From Antitrichia curtipendula (lineage: Eukaryota > Streptophyta > Bryopsida > Hypnales > Leucodontaceae): a stretch of 64,000 nucleotides of DNA. Position 1 is the stretch's first letter. Each line of letters opens with the position of its first letter. This document shows positions 28,598 through 48,144 of this stretch, piece after piece. The DNA is taken from the NCBI GenBank assembly GCA_951230915.1, contig OX579638.1, positions 28,786,696 through 28,850,695 on the forward strand, in the 5' to 3' direction. Under the pieces are notes generated by a model, which saw nothing but the letters and a program-made list of their open reading frames with translations, had not been told where the DNA came from and did no database searches. Position numbers and translations under genes: made by a program.

Positions 28598-28630
28598 TTA
28601 AAACACCGAATTAGACATTCTTGCACTTGG
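28598..28630 (+). repeat. Left terminal inverted repeat of the large element
   Basis: Inverted copy of 48112-48144 with one mismatch. Its inner end TTGCACTTGG recurs directly at 28642-28651, which suggests tandem protein-binding sites. Confidence 0.85.
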
Positions 28631-28912
28631 GGGGCGCGACATTGCACTTGGCTAGTACGGCATCAAAAATGGACAATCTCAAATGTTGTGGGGGGGAGCG
28701 ATTATTGCAAACATCATTTGCTCTTAGTAGGAGAAATTGCTTGGTGAAAAGTTGTCAAACACTCCATTTTTTATAATTACTTCATAAAAACCTTACACAT
28801 TTTTCACTCCACACTACTTTTAAGACTTATTAGTCTACGCTTCACACTCAAGTACTTCTACATACCTACAACTACAAGTACGTCGAACAACAATGTATAA
28901 TATCATATCTCA

Positions 28913-30664
28913 CTAGTACCTATTCAAATCATTCTGCAGACGTTCGTCATCTAGGTTCTCCATCTGCATTGCCATGTACTCGAGAAGATGTGCTTTAGCC
29001 TCTACTGGAATGATCACTGTCTCCTCTGTATTCACGCCATACATTGTAATCCTGGAATCTATAACATGACCACTTCTCCCTTGACGAGGGACATCCGTCC
29101 ATGAATATATAGCGGCTTCCTTCTCGGTCCAGCCCAACATCTCACCAGACGGTTCCCACGTTGACTCCATACAGTTCGTGTACCTCACTCGGTTACTACC
29201 CGCTTCATCATGTGCTCCAGGTCTCATAGTAGGCCAATACCACAGGACCTTCATCTTCGAGGCCCACGTCCCTTGACCGAATTTGAGCACCTTCCCTAAA
29301 AAAAAAAGGACTCCTCCTCTTACTTCCGCTAGTTCTACGGTAAGGGCTATGTACTGCCCTACAACAACGTCATTCTCTGGATTGAATGGAGGAAACGGAT
29401 CTTCCTCTGCATCTTGTCGTACCTCTGGTACAACTACATTCCTTCTGCCTCGAATCCTTCCCGCAGTCACTCTTCGTGATGTTGCTTGTACAGGTCTATC
29501 TCTGCGAGGTCCGAAATACCCCCTCCTCTCAGGATTTGGCATTGTCGCCATAATCCTGTCAACGACTGCACTCTCCGTCGTATTCCCATCCTCATCATCA
29601 ACTGCACTTGGAATTGTACCTCCTTCCACGTCAGGAACAATTCCATCATCCCTGTTCTGGTTCAAAACATCGCTGGGCCAAAATGGTAAATCACGGACAC
29701 CTTCCCTATTTCTTTGTGGAAATTCCTCCAAATACTCCTTGAACTGTTCTATTTCGTCCACCACTTCCATGTTCCTGATCGGGTTCAAGCCTCTGTCTAT
29801 CATCTTCTTCTTGTATGCAATGAACTCGTCCAATGCTTTCAATTCCCTCTGATCAGCTGCAAACATCTCCGCGAGGTCCGGTTTCTCCGCTACGCTAGGC
29901 AATGAGTTCAAACACAAATGCCCTCTCGCTGGGCCCCACTCATCAGTGCAAAAATGCTTGTGTTGCACACGGACCAATCCATTCTCCACGTAAAACCTCA
30001 TATGATGTGGAAATGTGATGCCCGTCAGTGATTCCCCTCCTCGTAGTAAATGGGGTGTGATAAATGCCTTCCAGTCGCGAACGTGCTCAAGCTTGCGAGC
30101 ACTTACAAAGGCCTCCGTGTACGACGTTCCCTTCTCCACCAGCTGCAACATCTCTGTCAAAGTGTCTATGTCTCTCCTCTTCAGTACATTCGAAATCACA
30201 CTGAACCTCTGATCGATGTCCTCATGTGTGTGGCCCACTATCAAAAAACAAAGATGCACTTCCTTGAAGAAACCAAGCCCCACTAGTGCACCACACATGG
30301 CAAACATGTAAGCGTTCTTGTTCTCCCTCGTAGTGTTATCCGCTTGAATCCTCAATGTCGGTGGCAATGATCCCTTCCTTCGCTTCACGTCGCATATGAC
30401 GTTCATCACCGACGTTACGACTTGATTGCTATCATGCTTGTGGTGAGCATCTATCCACACGTCCGCATACAGGCCGATACCATGTACAAGTACACCACAC
30501 AAATGAGTCTTCACAAACCGAGATTCGATGTTCTTCACGGTCTGCCTCATCTTCGGTATCATGGTCGTATTCTGATCCATACCGTCAACAATCAAACACA
30601 TAAAAAAATCCGGAGTGATCATCGCGGACCTCTTGAACAACCAATAATCTCGCCTCTCTTCCAT
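28913..30664 (-). CDS. DDE-like recombinase core (DUF7869-like), C-terminal part of broken gene
   Basis: The 583-residue frame starts at MEERRDYW and ends with TAG. Near the N-terminus is IVDGMDQNTT (Asp27, Asp30), then IQADNTTRENKN (Asp109), then FLIVGHTHEDIDQRFS (Glu148, Asp149, Asp151). The D-82-D-38-E spacing fits an RNase H-fold DDE recombinase, and the motifs match the family I know as DUF7869 from plants and animals. The C-terminal third (from about 330) has a disordered Arg-rich linker and a Trp-rich domain (VLWYWPTMRPGAHDE). Frame and content run straight on from 30671-32116: a lone TGA at 30671-30673 separates them. So this is most likely the second half of a ~1066-residue protein. 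The actual start, if translated alone, is uncertain. The large antisense frame 29283-29852 is a shadow. Confidence 0.75.
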   Translation of the reverse strand: MEERRDYWLFKRSAMITPDFFMCLIVDGMDQNTTMIPKMRQTVKNIESRFVKTHLCGVLVHGIGLYADVWIDAHHKHDSNQVVTSVMNVICDVKRRKGSLPPTLRIQADNTTRENKNAYMFAMCGALVGLGFFKEVHLCFLIVGHTHEDIDQRFSVISNVLKRRDIDTLTEMLQLVEKGTSYTEAFVSARKLEHVRDWKAFITPHLLRGGESLTGITFPHHMRFYVENGLVRVQHKHFCTDEWGPARGHLCLNSLPSVAEKPDLAEMFAADQRELKALDEFIAYKKKMIDRGLNPIRNMEVVDEIEQFKEYLEEFPQRNREGVRDLPFWPSDVLNQNRDDGIVPDVEGGTIPSAVDDEDGNTTESAVVDRIMATMPNPERRGYFGPRRDRPVQATSRRVTAGRIRGRRNVVVPEVRQDAEEDPFPPFNPENDVVVGQYIALTVELAEVRGGVLFFLGKVLKFGQGTWASKMKVLWYWPTMRPGAHDEAGSNRVRYTNCMESTWEPSGEMLGWTEKEAAIYSWTDVPRQGRSGHVIDSRITMYGVNTEETVIIPVEAKAHLLEYMAMQMENLDDERLQNDLNRY

Positions 30665-30670
30665 TTGAAA

Positions 30671-30673
30671 TCA
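30671..30673 (-). other. Single in-frame TGA joining the two halves
   Basis: Context on the minus strand is CTGCACATT-TGA-TTTCAAATGG. Both sides keep the same frame with no other stop across 3.2 kb. It could derive from CGA by loss of a methylated C. The known CUAG readthrough context is absent, so recoding is unlikely. Confidence 0.7.
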
Positions 30674-32116
30674 AATGTGCAGCACGTACAGCTCTTTTAT
30701 CTTCACCTTTGCGACTGCATTTGTCGTAGATTCCATCCCACACTTATACTCCCAACAATGATAACACTTCGAAAACCGAGAAAAAGGTGGAATTTGCACA
30801 TGCGGAAATTCCTTCCGCCAAAGCCGACGAAACGAAGACATTGACAACTCCGACCCGTCCACTAGTTTCTTCACTTCTTCGTTCACATACTGAAAAACAT
30901 CCAACTTGCTAGTATTCATTGGCAACAAAATCAACGAGAGAACCGCACTGTCCATTTTCCTGCGAATCGATCGATGGGGCTGTTGACAACCGGCTTCATT
31001 GAAAAAAACGTTGAGGCTTTCTCTAGCTGCAGACATTTTTGCACTTTCCTTGTGCTGACACCTGTTTCCATGAACGGCTGCCACTCTGCCATATACAGCA
31101 TGTGCTGTCTTCAATTGCTTCAAACGCCTTTGAGAATAACCCAACGCAGCGGCGTAGCATGCATTGCACACGACCCTACCATCTAGTTTTGTCACGTACT
31201 TGTCTCTTGTAGGACCCTCCGTGCGAGTGTAAAAGGCATTAAGCATTTGCATTATCCAAGTAGTACGTTCTTCGTACTTCTGTCCCCAAGCCATATATCG
31301 TTGGTCCAATACATACTTCGCATCTACATCACGCAAACAATTGCGTTTACATGCTCCCCTTTCCTTCGCACACATAACACTGTCTAGAGTAATTTTCTGA
31401 CTAGCAGACTCTCCCCTCTCCCGTGGACTTCTCACCCTTGCCCTTCGATTTGCCATTGAATATCGCCTCCTTAGTGTAAGCTCAGGTAGTCCTTCTACTC
31501 TTGTGAAATCCGGAGTGCTACCTTCAGAGCCTAACGTCACAGGATAACTTCTTTCTTCTGTGTTTCTTCCACCTTGACTTGGTGGCGTGCATTCGGAAGT
31601 GCTTGGGTTCTCTTCTACGTCATGAAAATCAAACTGTGGTGCTGAAATTGGAGGAAACGATGAATTCTGCCCCCCCATCGAATTTGTTGCTGTCGTTCTC
31701 ACCTCGTATGGACGTGCAGAACGAACGGAAGCACGACGCCATCGTATAATTTTATCTACACAATCTCCCATAGTCTTCCCTACCAACTCACCAACCCATT
31801 CTGTTTCCTGTACAGCATGTGTGACACGAACCGCAATCTCAAAAGGACGTAATTTCTCTCGATGGAGTTCATCACCGCATGCAAAATTTGTATCCACCAC
31901 GCCCACCCCCACAACTTGACTTTCGTCTCCAAGAAGTTGAACCATGCCATTGATAGATTGAAAATCTCCATGCGCAGGTGTATGACCTTGTTCTTCGAAT
32001 AGTCTTCCTCGTACCACACGCGCCAATCTGTCCCCTACGCTCCTTCGTTCAGTAGCAACCACTGTTGTCGCTACCGCATTGAATACCACTGGACTTCCAA
32101 ATGCTTCTGCTGCCAT
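30671..32116 (-). CDS. N-terminal, Cys-rich half of the recombinase-like protein
   Basis: 481 residues from ATG 32116-32114 to an in-frame TGA. Residues 1-130 form one globular block; 130-240 are low-complexity. A Cys cluster follows (C249, C256, C260, then VVCNACYAAALGYSQRRL at 315-332, C353, C377), like the zinc-binding N-terminal part of DUF7869-bearing proteins I recall. The last stretch, FSRFSKCYHCWEYKCG (447-460), adds CxxCx4C and leads into the DDE core after the stop. The natural reading is one gene with a nonsense mutation. Upstream on the same strand, 32416-32126 holds a coding-like stretch ending HFFIVSFVNENTERIVVWED, which may be a lost 5' exon but is separated by two stops. Confidence 0.7.
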   Translation of the reverse strand: MAAEAFGSPVVFNAVATTVVATERRSVGDRLARVVRGRLFEEQGHTPAHGDFQSINGMVQLLGDESQVVGVGVVDTNFACGDELHREKLRPFEIAVRVTHAVQETEWVGELVGKTMGDCVDKIIRWRRASVRSARPYEVRTTATNSMGGQNSSFPPISAPQFDFHDVEENPSTSECTPPSQGGRNTEERSYPVTLGSEGSTPDFTRVEGLPELTLRRRYSMANRRARVRSPRERGESASQKITLDSVMCAKERGACKRNCLRDVDAKYVLDQRYMAWGQKYEERTTWIMQMLNAFYTRTEGPTRDKYVTKLDGRVVCNACYAAALGYSQRRLKQLKTAHAVYGRVAAVHGNRCQHKESAKMSAARESLNVFFNEAGCQQPHRSIRRKMDSAVLSLILLPMNTSKLDVFQYVNEEVKKLVDGSELSMSSFRRLWRKEFPHVQIPPFSRFSKCYHCWEYKCGMESTTNAVAKVKIKELYVLHI

Positions 32117-34423
32117 TTCTCAATTTCACGCTTGATACATAATAGTCATGTATTTCGTGAAGAGCTTTTGTGATTCACTATCTTCCCAAACCACTATCCT
32201 CTCTGTATTTTCATTCACAAAAGACACAATAAAAAAGTGGTTTTCCACAGTTTCCAAATGACAACGACCCCCCCCCCGACCTAGACTACTTTTCAAGACC
32301 TCATACAAAAGACTACAAAAAAGAATCCAATGATTTTGTTTCTTTTTTTCCTTCATTTGCTTTACCAAAGTTTTGTAGATGTACTTGTCCATCATATTGA
32401 AGCACACATTGCACACTCTTTATACAACTCCCACTTAATGAATTCTTATTAACCTAACTATTTTTAATGTCCATTTCGTTGAACTGCGTAACACAAACAC
32501 ACTACGTATAAAGGACTACATTACTTTTTTTCTATATCAGTTATTGATATAGTTTTTTAAATACACAGTTTCTATACTAATATGCTTGTATTTTTAACTA
32601 CAAACATCATACAATTTCATTTGAATCCCTATACATTGGCCACTTCATTGTAAACATGCAAACAACACCATCCCATTACAACTTCTGGTACATGCGTAAT
32701 CAAATTGATAACATTAATAACATTCGTCATGCTCTCATTCTTTCGGAAGCTTCTCTTATGAAAGTTCAAACCCCACAGACTACATATCTAAATTGCTAAT
32801 TTGTGAATGCCATATGCCTCTCATAAGAATCATGGACTGTACACATAATTTAAAGAAACGCCACTGATAAAATACTGAAAGATGAATTCGCACTTTCCAT
32901 TCTACATGTTTTACGTTTTTTCACACCAGTGTCAATTAAATTTACTTCTTCAATCCAAAAAGCATAAAATAAACCCTTCAAAATATTTTAAAACATGAAC
33001 ATCCTCTTTGGACTTCTTTAGTTCTATCTGTGCATGAATACTGTGAAATGAAAGGTACTCATTCTATTCTATGTATATAGCTTTTTATATTGTCCTTCCT
33101 ATTAATATTGCTAATTTCATAGGTATTTTTTGGGTACTACAGTCATACCGCACAATCACAAATTTGTTCTAAGTATTCCAATTTTTTCAAAACACATGCA
33201 AAAAAGACTACCCACTTACACATACATAAACCTTTGATTTCACAATAATTCATAGAAGAAGCAATACGTACTATTACCACAACAAAAGTATGCAAGAACA
33301 GCATATGAAGTTCTCTTGTACAGTCCATTTCCAAAACCTTTAATAAAAAAATTGCAATTTTTTTCCTTTCATAATGCAAAATTATTTTTGTTTTCAACTT
33401 TTTTTTAATACATTTAAAAAGCTTTGAATGTTTGCATCTCATTCTTTCACACTACACAAATTGCATATTTAATGAATAATGTTGAAGACTTCAACCTACA
33501 ATAAACAAAGAAATTTCAATAGAACACACTTTTTACAATCCTCTTAAATTACTCCCTCCATCCAAATACTCTATTCATTTTTGTCTACATTTTTTGTTTA
33601 TAATAATGTCCGCATTTCACTCCGTAACATTGTCAACAGGTGAGATTAGTTTACATATTGCTATTTGGAATACAAAAAACCATTTTTAGTAATAGTTCCT
33701 CTACCTTCCATGCAACCATTAATTACATGACAAACAAAATGACTATACAGATCAGTTCACTGTTCATTCATTAATTTCTTATATCTTTGAGTTCTTCCTA
33801 GTTTAAGGAGGTGAGATTTTGGAAAGGCAGATTCAAGAATTGCACATGGTCTATGGCATATACTAAATGCATAAAAAAAGGAAACTTCATACTCAAAAAT
33901 GAATTGACCAATGCTAGTCTTCTAAAATGCCAAAGAAAAACTAACTCTCAATATTGTAAAACTACAATTCAAATAAGTTGTCATACAGTTTTAATGAATG
34001 ATAGAAAAACAATGAATTCAAATTATAGCGGAAAATTGGTTTCTAAAATGTATTATGTGACGTAATCAAGACATTCTGTCAAACATAATGATCATTTTTA
34101 AATAGAAGAGGTAATAGAGTAGATGTACTTTAAGAATTTAGTGGTTAAAAAATATTTCGTTCCAATGCAGGGATTATTATTGATGTCATTAGACTTCATA
34201 GGGGTTTGTAAGGTAAGAGGTTCTGAAATGGATCGGGTTCTAAAACCAATCAAGCTCTATATGTACATTTTGCACTTCCCGATGTACAAGCAGCGTGTAT
34301 TTAAGGAAGTGGTCAGCTTTAGAGATTTTAGAAATGCACTTTTCTGCAACTTAAGAAATTCATAACTAATTCCACAAAGATTCAAAAAATATGAAACAAC
34401 TTGGGTTAGATGCCAATATTTAC
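32117..34423. other. Upstream region of the recombinase gene inside the large element
   Basis: AT-rich, without a supported gene apart from the coding-like remnant at 32126-32416 (minus). A C9 run lies at 32270-32278. A segment near 34350-34400 resembles 36165-36220, suggesting an internal duplication around the inserted elements. Confidence 0.3.
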
Positions 34424-34591
34424 CGTACTGGTGTGAATAGTGGCTCCAGCTGTCATCCCAATTGTTTGGTAAGCAACCAACTCGATGATAAACCTCTGGA
34501 GAAGCACTGCCAAAGCAAACGTCACTTCTAGCATAGCAAATTAGTCACCCACACAATTGCGAGGCCCCACAATGCATGGAATATACCTACA
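34424..34591 (-). pseudogene. CYP97C: CYP97C-type cytochrome P450 exon fragment
   Basis: The minus strand encodes YIPCIVGPRNCVGD, a stop (TAA, 34543-34541), FAMLEVTFALAVLLQRFIIE, then IGMTAGATIHTS. This is the haem-binding loop (PRxCxGD, Cys ligand present) plus the C-terminal end of a P450. The tail 'ELVxxQTIxMTxGATIHT' is characteristic, as I recall, of CYP97C1/LUT1, the carotenoid epsilon-ring hydroxylase of plastids. The stop replaces the Gln seen in GDQFA. Only about 55 codons remain, ending at a GGTAAAT that may be an old splice donor. It lies inside the large element, so it is a captured or invaded host fragment and not functional. Confidence 0.75.
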
Positions 34592-34991
34592 TCCACCACA
34601 CATGATTACATTACAGGTCTTAGTTTCGGTAGTCAACAAGACGTGATCCTTGGGATTAGTAGGTCACAGCAGTCACAGACGGTATTATGAAAGACAGCCA
34701 TCTCATAAATATCATCAATTCTAGAACAACAAATTTAGCCCCAAGAAGCCCATATTCATCCTCATGTTCTTTTTAGCAGTTCTGAGTAGATTTTATAGAG
34801 GTTTTCTATAGTCCAACTACATAGTTATTTTGACCACCACATCATTCATTGTAGTGATGTAAAATTTGGCCACATCCAAATTCTTGATTTTTCAAAATAT
34901 AATCATCCAAAATCGACAAACTGAAACGATGAAACCTAGGTTTTCTATGGGATTAGACACTAAGGAAGGAGGCTGTAAAACAGAGCGGACA

Positions 34992-35944
34992 TCAACCTCT
35001 GAAGGACCAAACATTGTTTTCTGACAACATAGCATTTTTGGACAGCTCCGCACGAATGGAATTTTTATTTTTATTTTTTGAAACTTTCACACAAAATTTG
35101 CCTAAGGAGTAGCTTTAGGGCCCAACATTTTTCATAACATTTGATTCCATGGTTAAAAAGGTATGGTATGATATGTAGTTTTCATTGCTCGGCGGTCAAC
35201 CCGGACAGCAAAAAAAAATTCTTTCAAAATCTTTTCCTAGAGAAATATAAATTTGAAATTGATTCTCTAGATTTATGTGTACAAGGAAAACTTTGAATCA
35301 TTCCACTTTGATTTATGAGATGAAAGTTATGAGGAATTTTAGTTGTGGGTAGTTTGTGGGTAGTTATGGAATCTGTACTCTCAAATAAACTTTAAAGTCC
35401 TTTATTTAACTCAATTTTCATTATTTTAGACCAAAAAAGTATAAACACAAGGTGTAGATTGTTTATTACAACATTACAATCATTTGGATTGGCATTTTTC
35501 AATTACATAATTAAATCCTAAACAATTTAGTGTTTTGAATCATTTTCTACTTCTTTCTACTTACTATTTTTTTCCTATATGTTGTACATTTCCAAATGAT
35601 CTGAAATTTTTCAAAAGCGTTCCTAATTGGCTTTGAATAATGAATCCAGAGAGTTACCACCATTTTTGACATTTCTTCATACAAATGTGACCATGTGAAG
35701 TGCAGCTGTCAGGTTCTTCGCAAAGACAAAAAAAGGGTTTTTGTCACTTCAAATGCTAATATCTTGCAATCTACACAGTGGAAATTTCTGGAATTTTTCC
35801 CACATCTTCTCAAACTACTGTAATACAAGATCCTACGGTCACATGTATCCAAAAATGTTTTTTCCAAAAATTTCGTAATTGTACTAAACATGGCAGTTCG
35901 GGAGCGTTTTTTGTGAAAACATACTCAAAAACCTTTAGAGGTTT
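34992..35944 (-). mobile_element. TTAA element family A, inverted copy (A4) inside the large element
   Basis: Reverse complement of the 26182-27134 type, 953 bp, from TCAACCTCTGAAGGACCAAAC to GAAAACATACTCAAAAACCTTTAGAGG. Both TTAA ends are decayed, so it is older than A2 or A3. Confidence 0.75.
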
Positions 35945-36391
35945 TTGATGGACCCTATAAATGGCCGTGAAATGGACATGGGATGGTTGTGAAATGCACT
36001 AGTACATTCATTGAATGAATCAAGAAAAAAGTCTAATTACTTGCAACTTTGCAAGAGCCAATCGTTCTCTTCGCTTTTCCCATTTTCATTCAGAATTGCA
36101 AGTGAACCGTTTACGAAAGACCTGGGGTCACAAATAGGGACCTATGACCCAACATGTTTGAAAATTCATAAGTAATTCTAAAACGATTGGAAAAATACAA
36201 AACCACTGAGGTTAAATTCGTCATCAATTTCTCTAGGAGCTCGTCAATGAAGACTGAAATGCATAGCACTTTATATGTCACTCTTCTAGTTAGCATGTGC
36301 CAGATTTTCGATGTGCAGTGCTCAGATTTATTGTATCTGTTAGTTCGCCTTCCATTTTAATTTGTACCTTTAAAAGATTGTCTGTGATAAC

Positions 36392-36938
36392 TTAACCCCT
36401 AAGCGCTCAAACGACCATTTTATGGTCGCTGCCCGACTTCGGGCAGATTTTTCGGGCAGAAAAAAACTTTTTTCAATTTTTTATTTTTTTATTTTTTTAA
36501 GAGATTGGATTGTCTTTCAATATTTATATTCAAAACTAAGATCGCTACGGTCAAACAAAAACTATAAGAGAAATAGCACAAAGAGTCTAGTATTGTCTAG
36601 TGTTGAAAAACTTACTATTTGGGGAAAGTGTTGGTGTTTTCATTACTGGATCTTATGCATTTTTTCACAAATCAATAGAAACCACAATTTTGACCAATCA
36701 AAAAAAAATTCAATTGCTAAAGATAGAAATTGTATTTTTGGTGAATTTTTGAAGTTATATCTTCAAAATTCATTTGAAGAGAATCTAAGAATAATTTTAT
36801 AATTTTGACCATACGAATATTTTCTTCTTTTTGTGCTTCACATTATCTATTTTAATGCAAACTTCAAAAAAGTTGTAGAACTTATATTTTATAACACATT
36901 TGTGTTTTGTCCAAACCCCTTGGGCTTTTAGGGGTTAA
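36392..36938 (+). mobile_element. TTAA element family D (547 bp) inside the large element
   Basis: It begins TTAACCCCTAAGCGCTCAAA and ends CCTTGGGCTTTTAGGGGTTAA, with TTAA at both edges. A stem ATGGTCGCTGCCCGACTTCGGGCAG follows the left end in part. The interior differs from families A-C. Non-coding apart from a chance 126-codon frame. Confidence 0.75.
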
Positions 36939-36973
36939 GGAAGTATTTCCTCTTGACTTCCGGGAGCTCGAAT

Positions 36974-37405
36974 CTGTCGACAAAATCACCTCGACTTCTA
37001 CCTGGACAAACAGTGTGGCCGAATTTAACGACACACAATCTGCCAGCCAGCTAGACTTCTAGCTCGACAAACAATGAGCTCTGTCGACACTTTCAAGTAG
37101 TCGACAAATAATGTCGCCGACTTTTACGACAAACACTCCGGCGGCACTACGGCAGCCAGGTCGACTTCTACATCGACAAAAAATGAGCTGGCTGTGTCGA
37201 CAGAATCAGCTAGACCTCTAGCTTGACAAACCATGTGGCCGAATTTTAAACCAAACAGTCCTGCGGACAGCTTGGCTTCTACCTCGACAAACACTCAGCT
37301 GTGTCGACACAATGAGGTAGACTTCCAGCTCGACAAACCTCTGGCCGAATTCTACGACGAACACTCTGGAGGTCGCCTCGAGTTCTACCTCGACGGAGTC
37401 GACCG
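36974..37405. repeat. Four tandem units of ~107-113 bp
   Basis: Units start at TGTCGACA near 36974, 37081, 37194 and 37301. Each has TCGACTTCTACCTCGACAAAC-like arms around GTGGCCGAATTTNACGAC. The unit is GC-rich and full of GTCGAC sites, unlike the AT-rich surroundings. The last unit runs into an open frame (LDKPLAEFYDEHSGG), so it may descend from a repeated coding sequence. Confidence 0.8.
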
Positions 37406-39420
37406 CATAGTTGTACAGCGACGGTGGGTACGCACAGTGCACAGCGATGTACAAGCAAAATTCAGAATTCGCAAAGAGTGCATTCTGCAGAACAGAGGGT
37501 CGGTTTAGACAGCAGAGCGACGGTGCTAGTTAAGGGGTGCGGTGAATCTGCTAAACCTACACGGTGTGAGAGGCGTTGATCTGCGGAAGCTTCAAAACAG
37601 AGAACCTTCAGCGCCTAGCACGTCGTTTCCTCCATAAGATCTCCCTCTGCACTCTCGTCGAGTTCATCCTCACTCAGATGTACTTTGGGAAGGGTTTACG
37701 GTGTGTGAACAGTGATTGTCATCAGACCCCCCGCGCGTGGAGGGGGTCTGATGACAATCACTGTTCCCACATAGAGCTGAAGTCGAGAGACATGTAGGTA
37801 ATCCCTTTTCAAATTTAAAAATAGCCGCCCGCTCTTTGGGGTTAGTTTTGCAGGTGCAAGGCTGTGCGAATGTGACATACCTCAAGAACGCGGGACCACG
37901 CGTTGAATTGCCGCAATTGTTCCTCCGCTGCGCTGCTCGCTCCACCGTCGCCTACCGTCTTCAGCAGTCGATTCGTCCTCCTCCAGTCGCAACCTGCGAT
38001 TCAAGCGTGCAGCAGAATTTTGAGCGAAGGAGCACACATTCTCTTCGCTCCGTTTGAGTTCACTAAAGGACGTCTGCATCGTCATAGGAGGAGCCGAGTT
38101 GCAGAGGTAATTTCAGCGAAGAAAACTTGATTTCCGTAGGGAACATGAGGTCATGAAATTTCGGCAGGAAGGTGAACAGCTACGCGTTAGTTAGAGAAAT
38201 ATTTGTTCCCCTTTCCGTAATCTGCTTGCAGAATGCACCGAACAATGAAGCAGGGAATTGAAGATTTTCAGACTTTCAAAGTGTGGCCGAATTTCAGTAC
38301 CTTTCTTGACTCCGCCTGTCGATGTGTTCTGCAATTCCGCAGGTCTTCTTATCTTGCAATCCAGGTACAGTGATAAGCATTCAGGGAAATTAAAACTAAA
38401 TAGCGTGTCTGCGTTATGAAGGTAAGGAAGTCAAGCGGCGGGGGATTCTGAACTTACCGGTCATCGTTGCTAGCACATCGCGTGTGCATGGCAGGGAAGA
38501 AGTAAACAGTTTTCCAAGCTTGAACTGGTAACGAGTTTTCGTGAGTCAACTTCAGACTCTCATGAAGTTTTGAAGTTCGTAGTTTCATTCAATTGAATAA
38601 ATACTGCTGGGCTGTTCTGGGCGTCTTTGTATGTGACGCCTGGCTTGAATTATTTTAAATTACATTAAATTAATGTGCTTAGATTCTGCCACGCCTGACA
38701 GAACAGAGCAGTAATAACTATATTTCGCACACAGAGAGAACAATTTCATGAAGCTCATTTTTGAATTTCAAATCCAACATCCCACTTAGACTAAGGCAAT
38801 ATTTCAAATACTAATTACGTAGCTACACACACACACTTGCGAAGCTAAATAGTTGCCTTGGACAGGGGTTCATATTCATTTCTTGTGACGCCATTTCCAA
38901 TGTTCGCAACTGGTCAACTTGCTTAGCATGAGTCAGCGTCGACATCCCCGCCGGCCATTTCCAACGCTTCGAACAGAACACGCAGTACCTAGCTAACTTT
39001 GTGGAAACTGAATGAAGTTTTCGGTGATCGATTGAGATGCAATGGATTTCATAGTCCATTATTTTTCCGGGAATTGACAAGTCATTGAAAGTGTTGCAAT
39101 TGAAGTCACATAGATACGGTTTGTACTGTAATAGAGCGACCGAGGTCGTGGACAAATGCGCATTCAAAGAGCTTGAACTAGGATCCCAAGTAGTGACTAC
39201 TCGATTGACAGCAAGGAATTTCTTTTGTTATCACGGACTGAGTTCAATTCGGCTGCTCGCTACACCTAGCCATCATACAATCAAGGCCGCGAACAACTAT
39301 AATTTTGCTAGGAAGTTGAAAAGGTCGCCGGTACTTTTACAAGGATTTTTCTCACTGTCCCAATTTGCCTGCAGAATTCGCCGTAATTGCAAGTTCAGAA
39401 GTGGCGAGTGATTTGAAGAT
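37406..39420. other. GC-richer segment without recognised gene
   Basis: Unlike the rest of the element interior this looks like host gene or promoter sequence. Short frames on both strands (37836-38057 plus, 38823-39167 minus, 39085-39411 plus) have no domain I know. It may be a captured host 5' region or the shared control region of the two divergent genes, although 5 kb or more separates it from each. Confidence 0.3.
37707..37766. other. Perfect 25-bp hairpin with 10-nt loop
   Basis: GAACAGTGATTGTCATCAGA plus CCCCC pairs with its exact reverse complement at 37742-37766. Weaker pairing continues outward (GTGTGT with CCACAT). The arms are identical, which suggests a recent or selected structure. 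It might act as a small-RNA precursor or a binding site. Confidence 0.8.
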
Positions 39421-42400
39421 TCCCAATTTCCTGCATTTTCGGTACCTCATTTTCTGTACCTCATTTTCCGTTGTTGTTTATGTATTCCGGAGTTAGTGCT
39501 CTTCTTATCCTTAGTCAGGAAGGCAGTGGTCTTATTATCCTGTAATGAAAGTCAGGATTAATAAAATAAATAAAAAGTATGGAAAGAAAAAAATAGTTTT
39601 CTTCAATTTTTTTCATGAACATAACATGCAAGAGCCTTTAGAGAGGTTGCCTTTGCCAAAAGGAAGAATTAAAAATAGAAACAAAAGCTTGGAACTTGTC
39701 CTTTCCTTTCTTATTTTTTATATTTAATTTTTAACTTTTTAAAATCATATTTAAATGAAATTAGAATTCATTGATTATAATAAATTTTTGTGATTATTTA
39801 TGTAGTCAATGTACATTAAGTCACATTCCCTATTTAATTACTTTTGCAACATGGTGACTATACAAATGTAGTATGTTTTAAAGTAAACATGCCTATATAA
39901 GACATAATGAGTGTTTTACCTTTATTACAGTTGGCCAAATGGATTGGCATTTTTTTCCATACAAACATAATAGTGAGAAATAAAGAGAGTAGTTGAATTT
40001 TTTATTTACAAAGTACGAATTATTTATAAATTTTTGAAGTATATTGTCCAATTGGCTTAAAAGAGTTTATACACTACTCCAAAATCAACAAAAAGTTAGT
40101 GTATGCTTGATGGCTATCCTTCTACGTAAAGCAGTTACAATATTTTATAACAAGGTCACAACATAAAGGAAGAAAAAAATCAATTACTTTGATGAATTGG
40201 TACTAAAAAGGTAGAAGTTTCAAAATTAATCACTAATAGCTCCATAACCATCACCCAAGACATTGATTTTGGCCACTAACCAACCTAATTAAGTCCTAAT
40301 TTCATATATTGAATTTTTTTTGTCATGGATTTATGTACGACTCTAATGGGTCATTTCCTAGGTGCATGTCATAGGTGTTTTGTCTATCATATGCAAATTT
40401 ATCTTAGTATCATTAGTATTATTCCTTACTTTCAAGTGTAGTCTCAATTCTATATTGACACTTATACAAATAGCCCTAATTATTTTTTAAATATTTTTTG
40501 GGCAAAGAAACGGGTCTAGACTCAAGGTGCAAAGCATGTGTATTTTAATTATAGAATATTTTAGTGGAAAATAAAAATAAAAATAAAAATTCTAATGTTT
40601 TTTCTTGAAGTTTTTTTCTTATGTTGAAATTCTTTTTTAAATTATTCTTTTTTAATTTAAAAATAAATAAAAATCTTCTAGAAAATTTCATTACAATTAT
40701 TTCCAGGGGCTTTATGAACTTATGGCTAGTCACTGCCTTTGTTGCAAATCTGTAATCCCATAAATGAAAAATAATTATTGATTACTGATTAAATTCAGTG
40801 ACAGAACGTAAATCTTTAGTCTAACAGAACAAGCAGACCAGAACTCTCTTGTTTCACTTCTTATCTTGTTTATTTGGAAAATCAAAGAGTTCGTAAATAA
40901 AATAAAAAATAAAATTCTTTTCATCAATGGTGGAGATTTGTTCAATCTAACAGAAGAGCCCAACCTTGAACCCAATCCGGTTGTAGATGGGAAATTGGGC
41001 CACCCGAATCCTTGTCCCCATTGCTCCTTTGGAGCCGAATGGTTTGGCGCCAAAACTATGCCACCTAAGAGGACACGTAGGATGAGTGGTGGTTTCAATC
41101 CGGCCCTAGTATGAAGCCCTTGGGCCAGATTTGTCGAAATTGAGCTATCCTCTTGGTTCAAACTTAGAGAGTTCCGGCCGGCCTTCAATCCGGCCTAAAG
41201 TATGAACCGGCCCTGAGTATTATACCAATGAAATCTAACCATTTGCCATCAACTTATTTTGATTTTTTTGGCGACAAGAGAAGCTTTTTATGCACACTTG
41301 GGGTGGTGGGAGATAGAACAAACTGTGTGGGATATGTAATTTAGAGTTTGTGATTTTTCAACCGCTCATAATTAAGTCTAAAGTAAGAATTGTGTTAAAA
41401 TTATAATTTAATAAATAGTTTAGGCATAGTGGAATACCTTTTTTTTAAAACATTTGAATTAAAAAAAGTTGTGGAATCAAATTAAGTTTCATCTCCAAAA
41501 ATCCGTTTTAGATTTAGATCTTCCAATCAAAACTTATGGACAAATTTCAGAGAGGATGTATCTCATAAATGTCCAGAAATATCCTTTCAAACCTCTCTAT
41601 GAAATTTTATGGAAAAATGCATGTTATGAATAATTTTGAAGTTGTAGGCAAGTGGGATGTATTGATCCATTCCTTATTCTCTCATCTGATTTACTTATAG
41701 ATCATTGCTATTCGGAAGTTGTAATGATGATCGTTCCAGAGAAATGTCACTGACAACTAAGAATTATATTATCTACAATTAAAAAAAATTTAACACCTAG
41801 AAAAAAATTCAGAACCCCCCCATGAAGAAACAAGAATAATGAAACCTCTGCAATCATGCAGAATTTGTTGTAGCGATATACATGTAATTTAGAGGTTCTA
41901 TTTTAGAACATCTAAAAGCACTAATGTTCTATACAAGTGAAATGTATGATTGATCCTTGGAAACGGGTCACCTCAGCTATTGTGTATTTGAATTGCACGA
42001 AAAAAATAAGGTAACAAGGATTGAATGAATGTTCAATATTTTTATTGAAGTAATTGAGGAACATGTTGAAGTTAGAATGGATAAATGTACACTACAAAGA
42101 ACAAAGTGGAAATTTTATATTACAAAATTTGTATGAGTTCATATTCAATAACAGGTAGAAGGTATGTAAATATACTACGTATGATGAAGTTGTCTATCAG
42201 TAGTTTAAAAAGTATTCCAGTAGAACTGCCTTATATTTTGGAGGTTCAAAAGCGCAATTATTTGAAATTGAATTTTTTTTGAATTCCTAATTTTTTGCTC
42301 TGCATAAAATTTCTTTTGCTTTTCTTTTTGAGCCGTTGTTATTGTGTAAGTGGTTCTTCAATTCGTTTTGCTGTTGGAGGATTGTATACAAATATTTTAC

Positions 42401-43192
42401 ATATATTGAAATTGCACTGAAGTTGGATTCTTGTTGTTTGTTTTCATTTATAAATTTATAGTAGAAGTGATGTCTATCATTTACATATACAATTTCTTGA
42501 GCTACTATCAACAAATGAGACACTGAAAGCAAATAGACATTAGATCTTTTATGTAGTTTTATTAAACTTAAACACATTGTCACAGAGAAACATAACAATA
42601 TGTACAAATACTCATTTAAATAAGATAAATGATTTTTGAATTGGGAGTTCAGGAACTGAAAAACAGATTGAAAGTTTATTGTAAGGTAACTTTCACTTTC
42701 AAGTGTGGAAATAATTTTACTTTATTTGATAGACCAAGGAACAACATATAAAGGTAATGATAAAATCATACATGTAATGTTCCACTGAGAAGAGATATAT
42801 AAGATTTTCACATCCCAATCATGTTGAGTTTTTTTGGATTGAAAGTGTAGTGAATTTATTAGATAAAGTAATGTGATATTCATTGTCATGCGTAAAACAA
42901 ATGTCATTGGAAAATAATTGGATTTGATTTCATAAATTGGATTGTTGTTGGAATTGTTTCCTTTTTTTTTCATTGGTAAGTTAGGACCTTTATGTAATTA
43001 CATTTAGTACCCTGGAAAGAATATTCATTTGTCTTAATGAATGAGTTTATGAAAATTCACGATAACAGTAGTGAGTTTTTCAAATTTGATACAATTGGAA
43101 TTATTTATTTTAATTTATTCTAATGCATTTAAATTTTTTTGAAAACTTCAATGAATGCTAAAGTGTTGTTAAACTTTCATTTTCAGGGGATT
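39421..43192. other. AT-rich interior of the large element, 5' region of the right gene
   Basis: No complete gene. 40930-41220 is GC-richer with repeated CAATCCGGCC. It encodes CPHCSFGAEWFGAKT, faintly like a Helitron zinc finger. 41440-41610 is the second copy of the repeat at 25096. Towards 43192 the sequence is pyrimidine-rich and ends in a splice acceptor (TTTTCAG, up to 43186). Confidence 0.3.
43180..43186 (+). other. Probable 3' splice site before the right gene's start codon
   Basis: TTTCATTTTCAG lies seven bases before ATG 43193. It fits an intron in the 5' UTR, common in plant genes. The upstream exon is not identified. Confidence 0.4.
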
Positions 43193-43855
43193 ATGGCACC
43201 GAAGATGCACTTGAAGTGGTTGGAGCACGGATGGTGGATTGTAGTAAACGACAACGACAGGTCATCTTTGTGGATCACAGATTTTCCAATTGGGCAGGGG
43301 CGTTATGAGTCTGCATTGGCATCCTCACATGGAGTCATTGAGGGCCTCATGGGAACCGCTGACGGAGGACTGACTGTGTCGGTGACCACAACAGAAACAA
43401 CGCTTGAGAAATATAAACTGAAGAAGATATTGATGATGGCTCCAGTTCCGCCACAACTTCTTTTAGTTCTTACTCCGATGCGTAGCTTGAGGAATGTGGC
43501 AAAAGATTGGAAGAAAGTGCCTCATGAATTGCAGGTTAAACGAGAGGGAGCGGTTCAGAAATTCATGGGGATGACCTCTGAACAAGTGCGAGCATTGCGT
43601 CATCGATACCGGGAGATTCTAAGCCGTGAAGAATTAGAAAGGACGAACCCAGGTGTTGTGCAAGAGCGGCCTGCACCAAGAGATCCAGAGGACTTGAATG
43701 AAGTATATCGGGATCTTGCTATGCCAGTTAATCCAAATTGGGTTCCACCGGATGAACGGAACCGCAAGCGAGCTGCTGTTGAAAGGGGATTAGGAATGCA
43801 TGCAAATGAGGGGGTTAATTCTGGTGGACCGAGGGCACAGCGTCAACGCCTCTAA
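43193..43855 (+). CDS. Right gene of large element, N-terminal segment
   Basis: It starts at ATG 43193 (MAPKMHLKWLEHGWWIVV) and runs 220 codons to TAA 43853-43855. The frame continues after the stop without a break. Residues 1-100 form a small globular domain with HGWWIVVNDNDRSSLWITDF. Residues 120-220 are charged and include an Arg/Glu-rich helical stretch (MTSEQVRALRHRYREILSRE). I do not recognise a family. The weak likeness of WWIVV..NDND...W..D to FFIVSFVNEN....VVWED, encoded opposite at 32126-32416, suggests a shared module. The first ATG after the probable splice site was chosen. Confidence 0.65.
   Translation: MAPKMHLKWLEHGWWIVVNDNDRSSLWITDFPIGQGRYESALASSHGVIEGLMGTADGGLTVSVTTTETTLEKYKLKKILMMAPVPPQLLLVLTPMRSLRNVAKDWKKVPHELQVKREGAVQKFMGMTSEQVRALRHRYREILSREELERTNPGVVQERPAPRDPEDLNEVYRDLAMPVNPNWVPPDERNRKRAAVERGLGMHANEGVNSGGPRAQRQRL
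43853..43855 (+). other. In-frame TAA in right gene
   Basis: Context CAACGCCTC-TAA-TCTGTAGCAACC. The frame stays open on both sides and the composition does not change. Confidence 0.7.
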
Positions 43856-43909
43856 TCTGTAGCAACCGATGTTGTTGTTCAACCTACAAGTGATACCGAA
43901 GAGGTACAA

Positions 43910-46114
43910 GTGCAAGCGATCGCAGCAGTGAGGCCACCAATACTGGAGTCTTCAGTTGCGGAAGAATCATTGCAATCGAGGGGGGAGGAAACTCAAAATC
44001 TAGTAGTGAGTGAACTCCCAATTTTTCAAGAGCTTCCAAGTGAAGGAGAAGAAGGAGCTCCAACCACAATCACGGAAGTTGGATCAGGATCAAGATCAAG
44101 ACCACAAAGAGTGGGCTCAGGTGCAAGAGTTTACAGATCACGTGTTGTAGTGGCCAACGTGGATGCTGCTAGGATTGCCAATCGTGCAGGACGGAGTGCT
44201 GCGAGGGGACGCGGTACTGGTGGAGGACGTGTTGCTGGTGGAGGACGTGGTGCTGGTAGAGAACATGGTGGGGATGATGTGCAGCATGCTTCTGCAATGG
44301 AAAACGTCGCAGAAGACGAAAGACAGTGTCGCACTCGTGCAATGGATGCTGCAGAAGAGCAAGGCGCCAGAAAGCGAACAGCAGCACAGATACGTTGTCG
44401 AAGAACAGCCTTACAAAGTCGTACTCCACAAGGAAATGATGGCGAAAATGATGTTATTGATGATGATTCCTCTGAAGGTGAACCAGAACAAGAGCCTAGA
44501 AGAGTATTGCCAAAGAGCATTACGAAAGCATCTGTTGTTTTTCCTACTGAGACCGAGTACAGAGCAGGATATATATGGAGACAAAGTCTGATTTTTGATG
44601 CGAGGATCGATAGCATCCGCGATGTGGCTAACGCAGAGACGAACCACAGGGTGCTCATGGATTGGCGTGTAAATGAAATGTACGAGCGCCTCAAGGGATC
44701 CGAAGCTGATGGAGTAAGTGCGATTACCCTTTGTCCTATTGCATATCGCTATGACAGTATCAATGACGAAGGCGAGACGAAGGTGACGGAGGTACCGTTT
44801 AGCCAAGAGGGGACTGCACGTGAATTCGAAGCCTTGTATTTGAAACATTGCCGAGCGGATCCATCGCTCTCGAGCACCGCATTGCAGAGGAGGTGGCTGG
44901 AGAGCAATATTGTGTGGGAGCCAGTAGATGGCCAACATATTGTTGGTGCTTGTAAACGAGCTGAACGGGAGAAGGAACAGGGACATTTATCCAATGAAGA
45001 GTACCATGCGCAGTTTGTGAGCCGGAAAGCAAAGTTTGTGGTATACAACAACCCACAGTTTTATATCAAAGCGTCGGTCAAAATTAATGCAAAGGAGTTT
45101 GACAAGAAATTTTTCACAACGCATTACGAGAATCTCATCAAATTGCGCGACATATGGAAAGCATGTGGAAGTCCAAGTGTGGCTACTCGAGCTGACGATG
45201 CATACAGAGCGAAAGCGTTGGCAATGGCTGCGAGTGCATTACATTTAAGTCAGAGCTTATCAAAGAATGTATCGTTGGGGGAGTTGTCGAGGAAGATGGT
45301 GGACTATACACGCCATGCTTGGCATGAAGACAAGGACTCCTATAAGGCTATATTGCGGGTGTGCAAAGATTATGAGGACGGAAAACTATTTTTCAGCAAG
45401 AAGGCAGAAATTAAATGGAAGAAAATGGCTGGAGATCAAAATCTTGATGTCACAGTGGATGGGAACCCGAAGCGGAAGAGGATGGAGAAGACGTGGTGGA
45501 GGCCATTGAACAGTATCTCTACGGCAAACTATTTACGTGTGGTGAAAGAGATGTCTGCAAAGGATGTGGTGAATGGAAAGCGTCCTTCGCAGCGATACTA
45601 TTTCAATGATGCGGCTTCCGCGAACCCCTCCAAAGGTACAATAGCGTATGCGGTGGACCGAGTACAGCGGAAAGATGCCATCAGAAACCAAATTCGGTTT
45701 CTTATGGTAGAAGCAGGGGATGAAAATCCATCGTCCATGGATGATTTCTTCTCCATCAACGCAAGCAAGTATGGAGATTCAGAAGGAAGGCAGTTCATCT
45801 TGATGGGGAGGACATTGGATAATGACACAAAGACCTCGTGGTGTTTTCTTGCAGTGACGACGGTTCAAATGCTGAGCAGTTTGGAGAATGCCGTCCCAGC
45901 TTTTGTTAGACAATACTTTGTGGATATCCGAGCGGGTCGCAGAGGTTATGCGGGATATGGTCGAGACGTGGAGGATGTATCCAATGCTCGTTGGAATTGG
46001 CAAGTTGCAATTTCAGTAGTGCAACACGAAGAACGTGAAGGCTCATTTCACGTGAAATGTAGAGAAGGGTTCTTTGAGGACGAGTACATTGAACTTGGCA
46101 AACCATGTTTATAG
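43910..46114 (+). CDS. Right gene of large element, central segment with VDGQH motif
   Basis: Same frame as 43193-43855, reopening directly after the TAA. The listed start is the first possible codon used for the track-length frame, not a true start; the frame is open from 43856. It includes an Arg/Gly-rich stretch (GRGTGGGRVAGGGRGAGREH, ~44206-44265), which could bind RNA or DNA. Then a disordered acidic part is followed by a long globular region. That region carries ITLCPIAYRYD and VDGQHIVGACKRA (44934 on), placed as in ParB/DGQHR-fold proteins. Further on it carries KAKFVVYNNPQFYIKASVKI and LMGRTLDNDTKTSWCFLAV. It ends in TAG 46112-46114. Function is unknown; the ParB likeness is a hypothesis. 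Confidence 0.65.
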   Translation: MQAIAAVRPPILESSVAEESLQSRGEETQNLVVSELPIFQELPSEGEEGAPTTITEVGSGSRSRPQRVGSGARVYRSRVVVANVDAARIANRAGRSAARGRGTGGGRVAGGGRGAGREHGGDDVQHASAMENVAEDERQCRTRAMDAAEEQGARKRTAAQIRCRRTALQSRTPQGNDGENDVIDDDSSEGEPEQEPRRVLPKSITKASVVFPTETEYRAGYIWRQSLIFDARIDSIRDVANAETNHRVLMDWRVNEMYERLKGSEADGVSAITLCPIAYRYDSINDEGETKVTEVPFSQEGTAREFEALYLKHCRADPSLSSTALQRRWLESNIVWEPVDGQHIVGACKRAEREKEQGHLSNEEYHAQFVSRKAKFVVYNNPQFYIKASVKINAKEFDKKFFTTHYENLIKLRDIWKACGSPSVATRADDAYRAKALAMAASALHLSQSLSKNVSLGELSRKMVDYTRHAWHEDKDSYKAILRVCKDYEDGKLFFSKKAEIKWKKMAGDQNLDVTVDGNPKRKRMEKTWWRPLNSISTANYLRVVKEMSAKDVVNGKRPSQRYYFNDAASANPSKGTIAYAVDRVQRKDAIRNQIRFLMVEAGDENPSSMDDFFSINASKYGDSEGRQFILMGRTLDNDTKTSWCFLAVTTVQMLSSLENAVPAFVRQYFVDIRAGRRGYAGYGRDVEDVSNARWNWQVAISVVQHEEREGSFHVKCREGFFEDEYIELGKPCL
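46112..46114 (+). other. In-frame TAG in right gene
   Basis: Context CCATGTTTA-TAG-ATTTTTGATTGT. A former CAG would restore continuity, consistent with loss of a methylated C. Confidence 0.7.
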
Positions 46115-46186
46115 ATTTTTGATTGTAGACGTGGAGGTTCGCAAGGGGCGGACATACCTTGGTCGAACGAGGATTACAGCAAGGTT

Positions 46187-47608
46187 ATGCAGCAACTCAA
46201 GAACTGGATGTCTTGCATTTTTCGTTGGAATGGCGTGTTTTTGTTTCCGCCAGGCGTATCCTTTGACGAAGCGATGGAGTCGAGGATGGCGTTGCCAGAG
46301 GGCTGCCACGTGCTCCAAGGTTCTTGGATATTTCAAGCTGAAACCGTGTCCTCATACGTGAATGATCTACGTCATGGCGAGCAACGACGCCGTGGTGTAC
46401 AACCTGTTGGTGGCATTGTCATCATCATGAATTATCCCAAAGAGAGTGGGTTTATGGAAAACCTTCCTAGCGGTACGGATGACTTACATGTTATATTTCA
46501 AGACTCTTGGAGTACAGAAGTGATGCCTCGAGCGCAAGACAAGTTTGAGAGGACACCAACGGAGTTGAAGAGATTGGTACAAATGTATTTGCCGCGGAAT
46601 TGGGGGTTGGTGACATTAGGCATCGCAATGGCAGTGCCAGGGATTTTGGAGACGGGATATGTGGGCAATGATGTTATCATTATGGAAGGTGTCTCGTTGA
46701 AAACGCAATTCGTGTACGAAAAATTGCAAACGATGTATGGGGAGAAGTTGGTGATGGTGAACAGTGTGAGTATGGCCGCCGAATGCAGACCCTCACAGGG
46801 GTTGACTAGAGAAGAGAGCTTGCCCGGTGTTGGTGTTTCTGAAGCAGATGGAGCTGTGCCACCAGGTAGAGTTGAAAGACTACCACGGTCATCTAGGGAC
46901 TCCTCCTCCGAAGAAGGGAGAGTTCAAGCGAGAAGGCGGAGAAGGCGGAAGGGGAAAGCTAAAGCAGTTGATTCGGGAGCCTCATCAACGAACGAAGATG
47001 AGAGTGATGCCGAGCGGACACAGTCTGGCAGATTACCAAGTGCTGGCCGAAGTTTAGGTTCTCGTGACACCGATGCAGTCAGTGACGCCCGTGGGGACCA
47101 AGCAAACTTGATGGAAGTGGAGCAAGACCCGGATTTTGTTGTTCCAGAAGTAGTTGAGGAGGTGGACAACGTGGAACCGGAACAAGTTGAAGAGGCCGTG
47201 GGAGAAAATGCGGATACAACAGAACAAACGGAGTCTATGTCAGCGTTGTCAGCATTCAGTCAATTGGATCAAATGAGCTTCGTCCCGGATGGTGAGGGAT
47301 ATTATCGTAATAGGGACAACGTTCGATTCACTCAGACAGGTGAAGGACCACATTACATTTATCACCGAGTGACTTCCATCTTGGAAGGACCTTCTCTAAC
47401 GCCAACTTTATCAGAAGGAGTGACAACACCCGTTGCAAGCACCATGGTGGATACGGCGTTGCAGTTTATCTCTTCGCCTCCAATGAGTCCAATCGGTGGA
47501 CCAAGTGCACAGGATCAAGCGGAGGCAATTGGTGGAGGAGAAGGAGGAGACTTGGTGCAATTATCTGCACGAATATTAGAGACACCGGATGAAGCAGGAC
47601 CGTTATAA
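46187..47608 (+). CDS. Right gene of large element, C-terminal segment
   Basis: Same frame again, open from just after TAG 46114 (IFDCRRGGSQGADIPWSNED precedes the first Met). Residues 1-200 are globular (SCIFRWNGVFLFPPGVSFDE, VGGIVIIMNYPKESGF, YLPRNWGLVTLGIAMAVPGI). From about 210 to 350 it is acidic, Ser/Arg-rich with a basic patch QARRRRRRKGKAKAV that could be a nuclear signal. It ends LETPDEAGPL-TAA at 47606. With the two upstream segments this makes a ~1470-codon gene with two in-frame stops. The gene stops ~0.5 kb from the right terminus. Confidence 0.65.
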   Translation: MQQLKNWMSCIFRWNGVFLFPPGVSFDEAMESRMALPEGCHVLQGSWIFQAETVSSYVNDLRHGEQRRRGVQPVGGIVIIMNYPKESGFMENLPSGTDDLHVIFQDSWSTEVMPRAQDKFERTPTELKRLVQMYLPRNWGLVTLGIAMAVPGILETGYVGNDVIIMEGVSLKTQFVYEKLQTMYGEKLVMVNSVSMAAECRPSQGLTREESLPGVGVSEADGAVPPGRVERLPRSSRDSSSEEGRVQARRRRRRKGKAKAVDSGASSTNEDESDAERTQSGRLPSAGRSLGSRDTDAVSDARGDQANLMEVEQDPDFVVPEVVEEVDNVEPEQVEEAVGENADTTEQTESMSALSAFSQLDQMSFVPDGEGYYRNRDNVRFTQTGEGPHYIYHRVTSILEGPSLTPTLSEGVTTPVASTMVDTALQFISSPPMSPIGGPSAQDQAEAIGGGEGGDLVQLSARILETPDEAGPL

Positions 47609-48111
47609 GAGACATAGTAGTACGTGTGATGGTAGAATAGGGTGTCTGAGAGTATAGACCTTGTTTGCTAGTTTTGAAAGACTATGAAGATGTTCGAATA
47701 ATTGTATGGTTTTTGATTGGTGTGAGCACATAATTAAAAAATGTGAAGGTAGTTGCTAAACCTTCAATGTCATTTTGGATTTATAAATAAATATTCTAAA
47801 AATTATAGTGAATATTGCTGTACACATGGTATACACATATAAAAATTATAACATGAATGTAATTGCAAAGTGCTGAGCATCAATGTTAATACATGAGACC
47901 AAACCAAATGATTGATAGGAAGAAATATTATGTGTTGGACTTGTATTTCTCTTGGAATAAATGAAATTGCATCCTCATAGAGAGTTTGCATTCGAAGTGA
48001 TAGCATTGCATGATGAAATTTAAAAATTGATCTATTGAAAACCTGGGGGGTACTCAAGTTTTTGATAATACATTTTTTGTGAATAGTTTTGCATACGATC
48101 ATTGCACTTGG
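47609..48111 (+). other. 3' region of right gene up to the terminal repeat
   Basis: AT-rich, with AATAAAT near 47785 as a possible poly(A) signal. The minus-strand frame 47803-48207 reads across the terminal repeat and is a shadow. Confidence 0.35.
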
Positions 48112-48121
48112 CCAAGTGCAA
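48102..48121. repeat. Perfect 20-bp palindrome at the right end of the large element
   Basis: TTGCACTTGGCCAAGTGCAA. It is built from the inner 10 bp of the terminal repeat and its inverse. At the left end the same TTGCACTTGG occurs twice in direct order 21 bp apart instead. Confidence 0.85.
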
Positions 48122-48144
48122 GAATGTCTAATTTGGTGTTTTAA
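48112..48144 (-). repeat. Right terminal inverted repeat of the large element
   Basis: Reverse complement of 28598-28630 with one mismatch, ending GGTGTTTTAA. The last TTAA may be the target duplication. Confidence 0.85.

Follow-up and report, generated by a model that had tools for sequence, protein, structure and literature searches.

A giant, probably Sola-like DNA transposon in the moss Antitrichia curtipendula couples a DUF7869 gene with a ParB-like partner gene

Sola DNA transposons, according to the accessible part of a published account, make 4-bp target-site duplications, encode a DDD transposase, measure mostly 2-9 kb with some above 15 kb, and are present in a moss (PMC10741241). 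Sola1-1_Ec32 of Ectocarpus, a 21.5-kb element, is described in the available portion of its report as pairing a transposase gene with a large ParB-methyltransferase gene of the opposite strand; the product of the latter has 1104 amino acids, and its methyltransferase was predicted to produce N4-methylcytosine or N6-methyladenine (Dinatale et al. 2025, PMC12477816). Bacterial ParB-methylases are exemplified, in the part of the source available, by that of Bacillus cereus (PMC5512222). Here we analyze a transposon at positions 28598..48144 of a 64,000-nt stretch of the genome of the moss Antitrichia curtipendula (the window, C6:28786696-28850695; genome 400 Mb, 303 contigs). At 19.5 kb, it is a genuine mobile DNA element that belongs to a large family in that genome and is a worn copy. 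We consider it probable that it is a giant cut-and-paste transposon, most likely of the Sola type (Sola1-like), with a DUF7869 transposase and a ParB-like partner protein. The first-pass annotation of this DNA had matched it to no known superfamily, a view overtaken by the Sola traits and the Ectocarpus element, so far as the accessible text of both papers describes them (PMC10741241, PMC12477816).

The ends of the element form a 33-nt inverted repeat (28598-28630 and 48112-48144) with one mismatch, 97% complementary, as had been read from the window. Even with up to three mismatches allowed, the 29-nt core of this repeat occurs in the window at these two places alone, and it was found in none of 100 shuffles. 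The element proper spans 28602-48140, because the flanking 4 bp are a target-site duplication and the 29-nt terminal repeat common to the copies begins AACACC. Two long divergent genes, each in one continuous frame, run outward and end approximately 310 bp (left) and 530 bp (right) inside the ends, in agreement with the initial description. Across the whole genome, the 29-nt end searched without TTAA gave 286 matches (146 + 140) at up to three mismatches, compared with none for the reversed control; 50 of the 286 are exact, and TTAA precedes seven of these 50. The pattern with a leading TTAA was found at seven places, including a second full-length copy on contig C8 (20,317 bp with its duplications).

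Thirty end pairs were compared, 19 from a typed subset and 11 from the listing of end matches or the right end of a C4 copy. They were drawn from 100 listed matches of the 286 plus that C4 right end, lie mostly on C1-C4, C6 and C8, and do not form a random sample; they span 17.3-38.3 kb. A perfect 4-bp target-site duplication was present in 24 of the 30 pairs, in 16 different sequences, and in the other six pairs 1, 1, 1, 2, 2 and 3 of the four bases were alike. Mis-paired flanks, analyzed as a control, matched perfectly in 29 of 870 cases. Four pairs carry TTAA, each with an end already selected by the TTAA-requiring search, and TTAA is absent from the other 20 perfect pairs. The TTAA flanking the window copy is that copy's 4-bp duplication and not a site rule of the family, so that the TTAA use proposed in the first-pass annotation does not hold. 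A piggyBac- or Kolobok-like transposon restricted to TTAA sites would agree with the TTAA that flanks the window copy at either end. The duplications of the other pairs contradict it, no Pfam domain except DUF7869 exceeds its cut-off in the two pieces of the left gene, and we give this explanation practically no credence. EnSpm/CACTA elements have ends starting CACTA and 3-bp duplications, unlike the AACACC ends and 4-bp duplications of the moss element.

End typing covered 51 of the 100 listed matches, comprising all those on C1 and C2 and three on C3. The ends might, as the first-pass annotation had allowed, have occurred alone in many places; the typed matches give a different picture, as 19 pairs account for 38 of the 51 and the remaining 13 lack a partner, at least one (C3:36849235) simply because its partner lies outside the typed rows. 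No short deleted copies were seen among the 51 typed matches, because only two of them lie closer together than 17 kb, and these share a strand.

The gene pairing is constant in the copies examined. The DUF7869 gene lies at one end in 29 of the 30 pairs and the second gene at the other end in all 30, so that the search for the same gene pair between the same ends, suggested at the outset, showed it to recur. DUF7869 profile matches were present in 27 pairs, 1303-1428 bp from one end; for the remaining three, tblastn of the fetched stretches showed the gene in two and not in one. The second gene was found in 20 of 20 sampled pairs and at the expected place in six of seven further pairs, that of the seventh lying at C4:9291453, and it is also carried by the window, C8 and C4:11343140 copies.

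An independent count was made from the genes themselves. In the second-gene search, 60 of 250 candidates were scored (65 rows merged to 60 places), and a divergent DUF7869 match lies no more than 45 kb away from 53 of the 60 places, at a median distance of 15.0 kb; random placement, for which the lengths of contigs C5, C7, C9 and C10 were guessed, gave 0.44 such places on average and 4 at most. This co-occurrence excludes the possibility, raised at the first pass, that the two genes are never found together. Seven places have no DUF7869 partner in the 119 rows used, and the 31 dropped DUF7869 rows include two partial matches at the same profile end, of which the divergent one at C2:20683321 would give 54 of 60. 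A chance nesting or fusion of two unrelated elements at the locus might account for the central 11 kb, which varies between copies and has copy-specific stretches; the constant gene pair and offsets in the examined pairs, together with the 53 co-occurrences, contradict such an origin and make it highly improbable.

The left protein, which the first-pass annotation had likened to a DDE recombinase, is a probable transposase, as judged by its motifs, its position between the ends and the size of the family; the motifs would fit one of the RNase H-like DDE/DDD kind. Its 12 database relatives are 49-77% identical and all carry PF25273, with uninterrupted frames of 1053-1066 amino acids in eight of them. 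VDGMDQ, HHKHDSNQV, QADN..RENKN and GHTHED are invariant or nearly so in the alignment, and D512, D515, D594, E633 and D634, invariant among 13 sequences, would fit a DDD or DDE center; the fold model is poor (mean predicted local distance difference test score, pLDDT, 40) and unfit for structure search. A DUF7869 profile search of the genome gave 1613 first-look candidates, of which 150 were scored; all 150 match, and no matches were found in 14 control genomes. The 119 rows used for pairing score above about 149 bits. Eight of them lie in open frames 1067-1072 codons long and have a match free of stops, and undamaged copies therefore seem to exist. A second group of DUF7869 matches was also observed (for example C3:4303204-4303689), most covering profile positions 34-36 to 190-192 and many lying in 643-codon open frames; all listed rows are free of stops. 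This group points to a further DUF7869 family in the moss genome.

The right gene starts with MAPKMH at 43193 and ends with a TAA at 47606-47608. By sequence its protein remains nameless, as the first-pass annotation had it; it is modelled as a ParB-like plus amino-methyltransferase-like protein. The modelled methyltransferase-like fold resembles N6-adenine and N4-cytosine methyltransferases. In the BFVD list, a phage 'ParB/Sulfiredoxin' protein aligned over 764 columns (E 0.08). Searches by sequence for solved-structure relatives gave none for two of the queries and only chance-like ones for a third. Uninterrupted frames reach 1320-1488 amino acids in four of 14 right-gene relatives. A DPPY-type motif IV is absent from all 14 homologues, and the 11 that reach the region have DCRR; among ten genomic copies read, DCRR is present in nine and DCRH in one, and in all ten, sequences such as LGITMAVP take the place of the glycine-rich loop. 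The methyltransferase domain thus apparently lacks its catalytic motifs. An active methyltransferase that methylates the element's own DNA, as the available part of the Ectocarpus paper suggests for such proteins (PMC12477816), would be consistent with the modelled fold and with the constraint on the gene; in view of the missing motif and the replaced loop, we regard it as improbable. A viral or phage link was rejected, as no relatives were found in IMG/VR for either gene (two short peptide patterns each) or in phage records, where only the second piece of the left gene served as query.

Both genes are damaged in the window copy and constrained in the copies compared. The three in-frame stops of the window copy (TGA, TAA and TAG) are most simply read as damage to both genes, because the database relatives have open frames of like length; an alternative genetic code was considered and set aside, since the stops comprise all three codons and the relatives' frames are open. 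With stop or gap codons excluded, the ratio of nonsynonymous to synonymous substitution rates (dN/dS) relative to the window copy was 0.31 (C1), 0.22 (C4), 0.20 (C2) and 0.21 (C8) for DUF7869, and 0.22 (C4), 0.24 (C2) and 0.32 (C8) for the second gene. Both genes are under constraint across this range, 0.20-0.32.

End types assigned from the 30-pair comparison, set beside second-gene identities from the 20 sampled pairs, distinguish subfamilies among these copies. Right ends with G as the 29th base accompany second genes 87.5-92.8% identical to that of the window (11 of 20), and those with A accompany second genes 70.5-77.0% identical to it (9 of 20). Two copies, C4:11343140-11361992 and C3:36849231-36868502, have a G-type left end and an A-type right end. 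The C4 copy is separated from the window copy by a synonymous distance (dS) of 0.19 in DUF7869 compared with 1.0 in the second gene, which suggests an exchange of halves between elements of different subfamilies.

The region between the genes holds a direct-repeat array with a 24-nt core, whose units in the C1 copy are about 107 nt long and in which TGTCGACA palindromes were judged by eye. The array could have arisen as a nested repeat or could serve as a site bound by the ParB-like protein; since the C4 and C2 copies were searched and did not show it, a parS-like site is kept as a lead only. Near the array, 37702-37771 form a nearly perfect hairpin (97%) of 30 nt with a 10-nt loop. The features of the element are listed in Table 1.

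Table 1. Coordinates of the moss element's features within the window
Feature	Position	Strand	Basis
Target-site duplication, left copy (TTAA here)	28598..28601		Repeat common to copies starts AACACC; 4-bp duplications in 24/30 pairs
Left terminal inverted repeat, 29 nt	28602..28630	+	Window and genome-wide matches
Second copy, in left end, of the terminal motif TTGCACTTGG; possible transposase site (function inferred)	28642..28651	+	
DUF7869 gene, probable transposase, one frame, in-frame TGA 30671-30673	28913..32116	-	
DUF7869 (PF25273) domain; invariant motifs VDGMD, QADN..RENKN and GHTHED in or beside it	29942..30523	-	
Direct-repeat array between genes	36959..37400	+	Common to C1 and C8 copies
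Second gene, ParB-like and methyltransferase-like protein (modelled); in-frame TAA 43853-43855, TAG 46112-46114	43193..47608	+	
ParB/sulfiredoxin-like domain, conserved WEPVDGQH	44582..45112	+	Aligned to modelled homologue P0013
Beta-class amino-methyltransferase-like domain	46007..46738	+	Aligned to P0013; DCRR 46121-46132 at expected DPPY place
TTGCACTTGG inner copy in right end, inverted relative to the terminal one	48102..48111	+	
Right terminal inverted repeat, 29 nt	48112..48140	-	Window and genome-wide matches
Target-site duplication, right copy (TTAA)	48141..48144		30-pair comparison

Elsewhere in the window, an exon of an EF-Ts gene was identified at 62029-62397 on the minus strand (PF00889, E 8e-20), with further EF-Ts-like frames, recognized by eye, to about 63.8 kb. 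On the plus strand, 56673-58787 hold a series of open segments in one frame, interrupted by stops, that looks like a worn transposase-like gene; three of its segments have no Pfam match above cut-off.

In the mechanism we propose, the DUF7869 protein would recognize the 29-bp ends, which in the window copy carry TTGCACTTGG twice per side, excise the element and insert it through a staggered cut of 4 bp, whose sequence preference would be loose. Its partner, the second protein, would be encoded by the element and bind DNA; it would combine a ParB-like domain with a helical region and an amino-methyltransferase fold that lacks catalytic motifs. Rather than methylate DNA, this protein probably loads on the transposon, whose distant ends it would mark, protect or bridge. 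A more specific version, which we put forward as speculative and rather unlikely, treats DUF7869 as its own transposase lineage and has the second protein, a non-catalytic ParB-methyltransferase needed in cis, enforce the giant size by loading along the element and pairing its distant ends. Such a requirement would explain both why no short internally deleted copies appear among the examined end matches and why the right-end type travels with the type of the adjacent gene.

These results bear on accessory proteins of transposons more broadly. In a family with 286 end matches in a single genome, a eukaryotic transposon keeps a prokaryote-type ParB-methyltransferase protein under selection after the apparent loss of its catalytic motifs. 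The role of such proteins thereby becomes testable, as self-methylation needs catalysis and binding or bridging does not. A probable mobile-element role is also indicated for DUF7869, a Pfam domain of unknown function with many copies in this genome.

Among known systems, Sola1-1_Ec32 is the closest described: as far as the available description goes, it shares with the moss element a size of approximately 20 kb, a transposase and a large opposite-strand ParB-like plus methyltransferase gene. The moss element differs in having DCRR or DCRH at the expected catalytic motif, and the likeness between the two transposases and between the two ParB proteins is one of description. As in bacterial and phage ParB-methylases, in the part of the literature available, a ParB-like domain and an amino-methyltransferase are joined in one protein; unlike them, the moss protein has apparently lost the catalytic motif, has long extensions on both sides and is borne by a eukaryotic transposon. 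The ParB-like domain and the amino-methyltransferase fold agree with the ParB-methyltransferase accessory gene of giant transposons, as does the strand opposite the transposase gene, seen at 53 of the 60 second-gene places. Compared with the Sola superfamily as the accessible account presents it, the 4-bp duplications agree (24 of 30 perfect, against 29 of 870 in the mis-paired control), and the lengths of the moss pairs correspond to the long end of the range only.

The Sola assignment is drawn from these described traits. DUF7869 elements might instead constitute a superfamily of their own, apart from Sola and joined to a ParB-methyltransferase gene independently of the Ectocarpus element; the DUF7869-Sola link is a conjecture of our own, and no mention of DUF7869 was found in the literature searched. 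Against this possibility, which we hold open as a doubtful one, the 4-bp duplication, the length above 15 kb and the opposite-strand ParB-methyltransferase gene coincide with what the available texts give for Sola and Sola1-1 (PMC10741241, PMC12477816). We therefore favor the interpretation of the moss element as a giant Sola-like transposon. Since algae are known to have comparable giant elements, it is an unusual variant and not an entirely new system.

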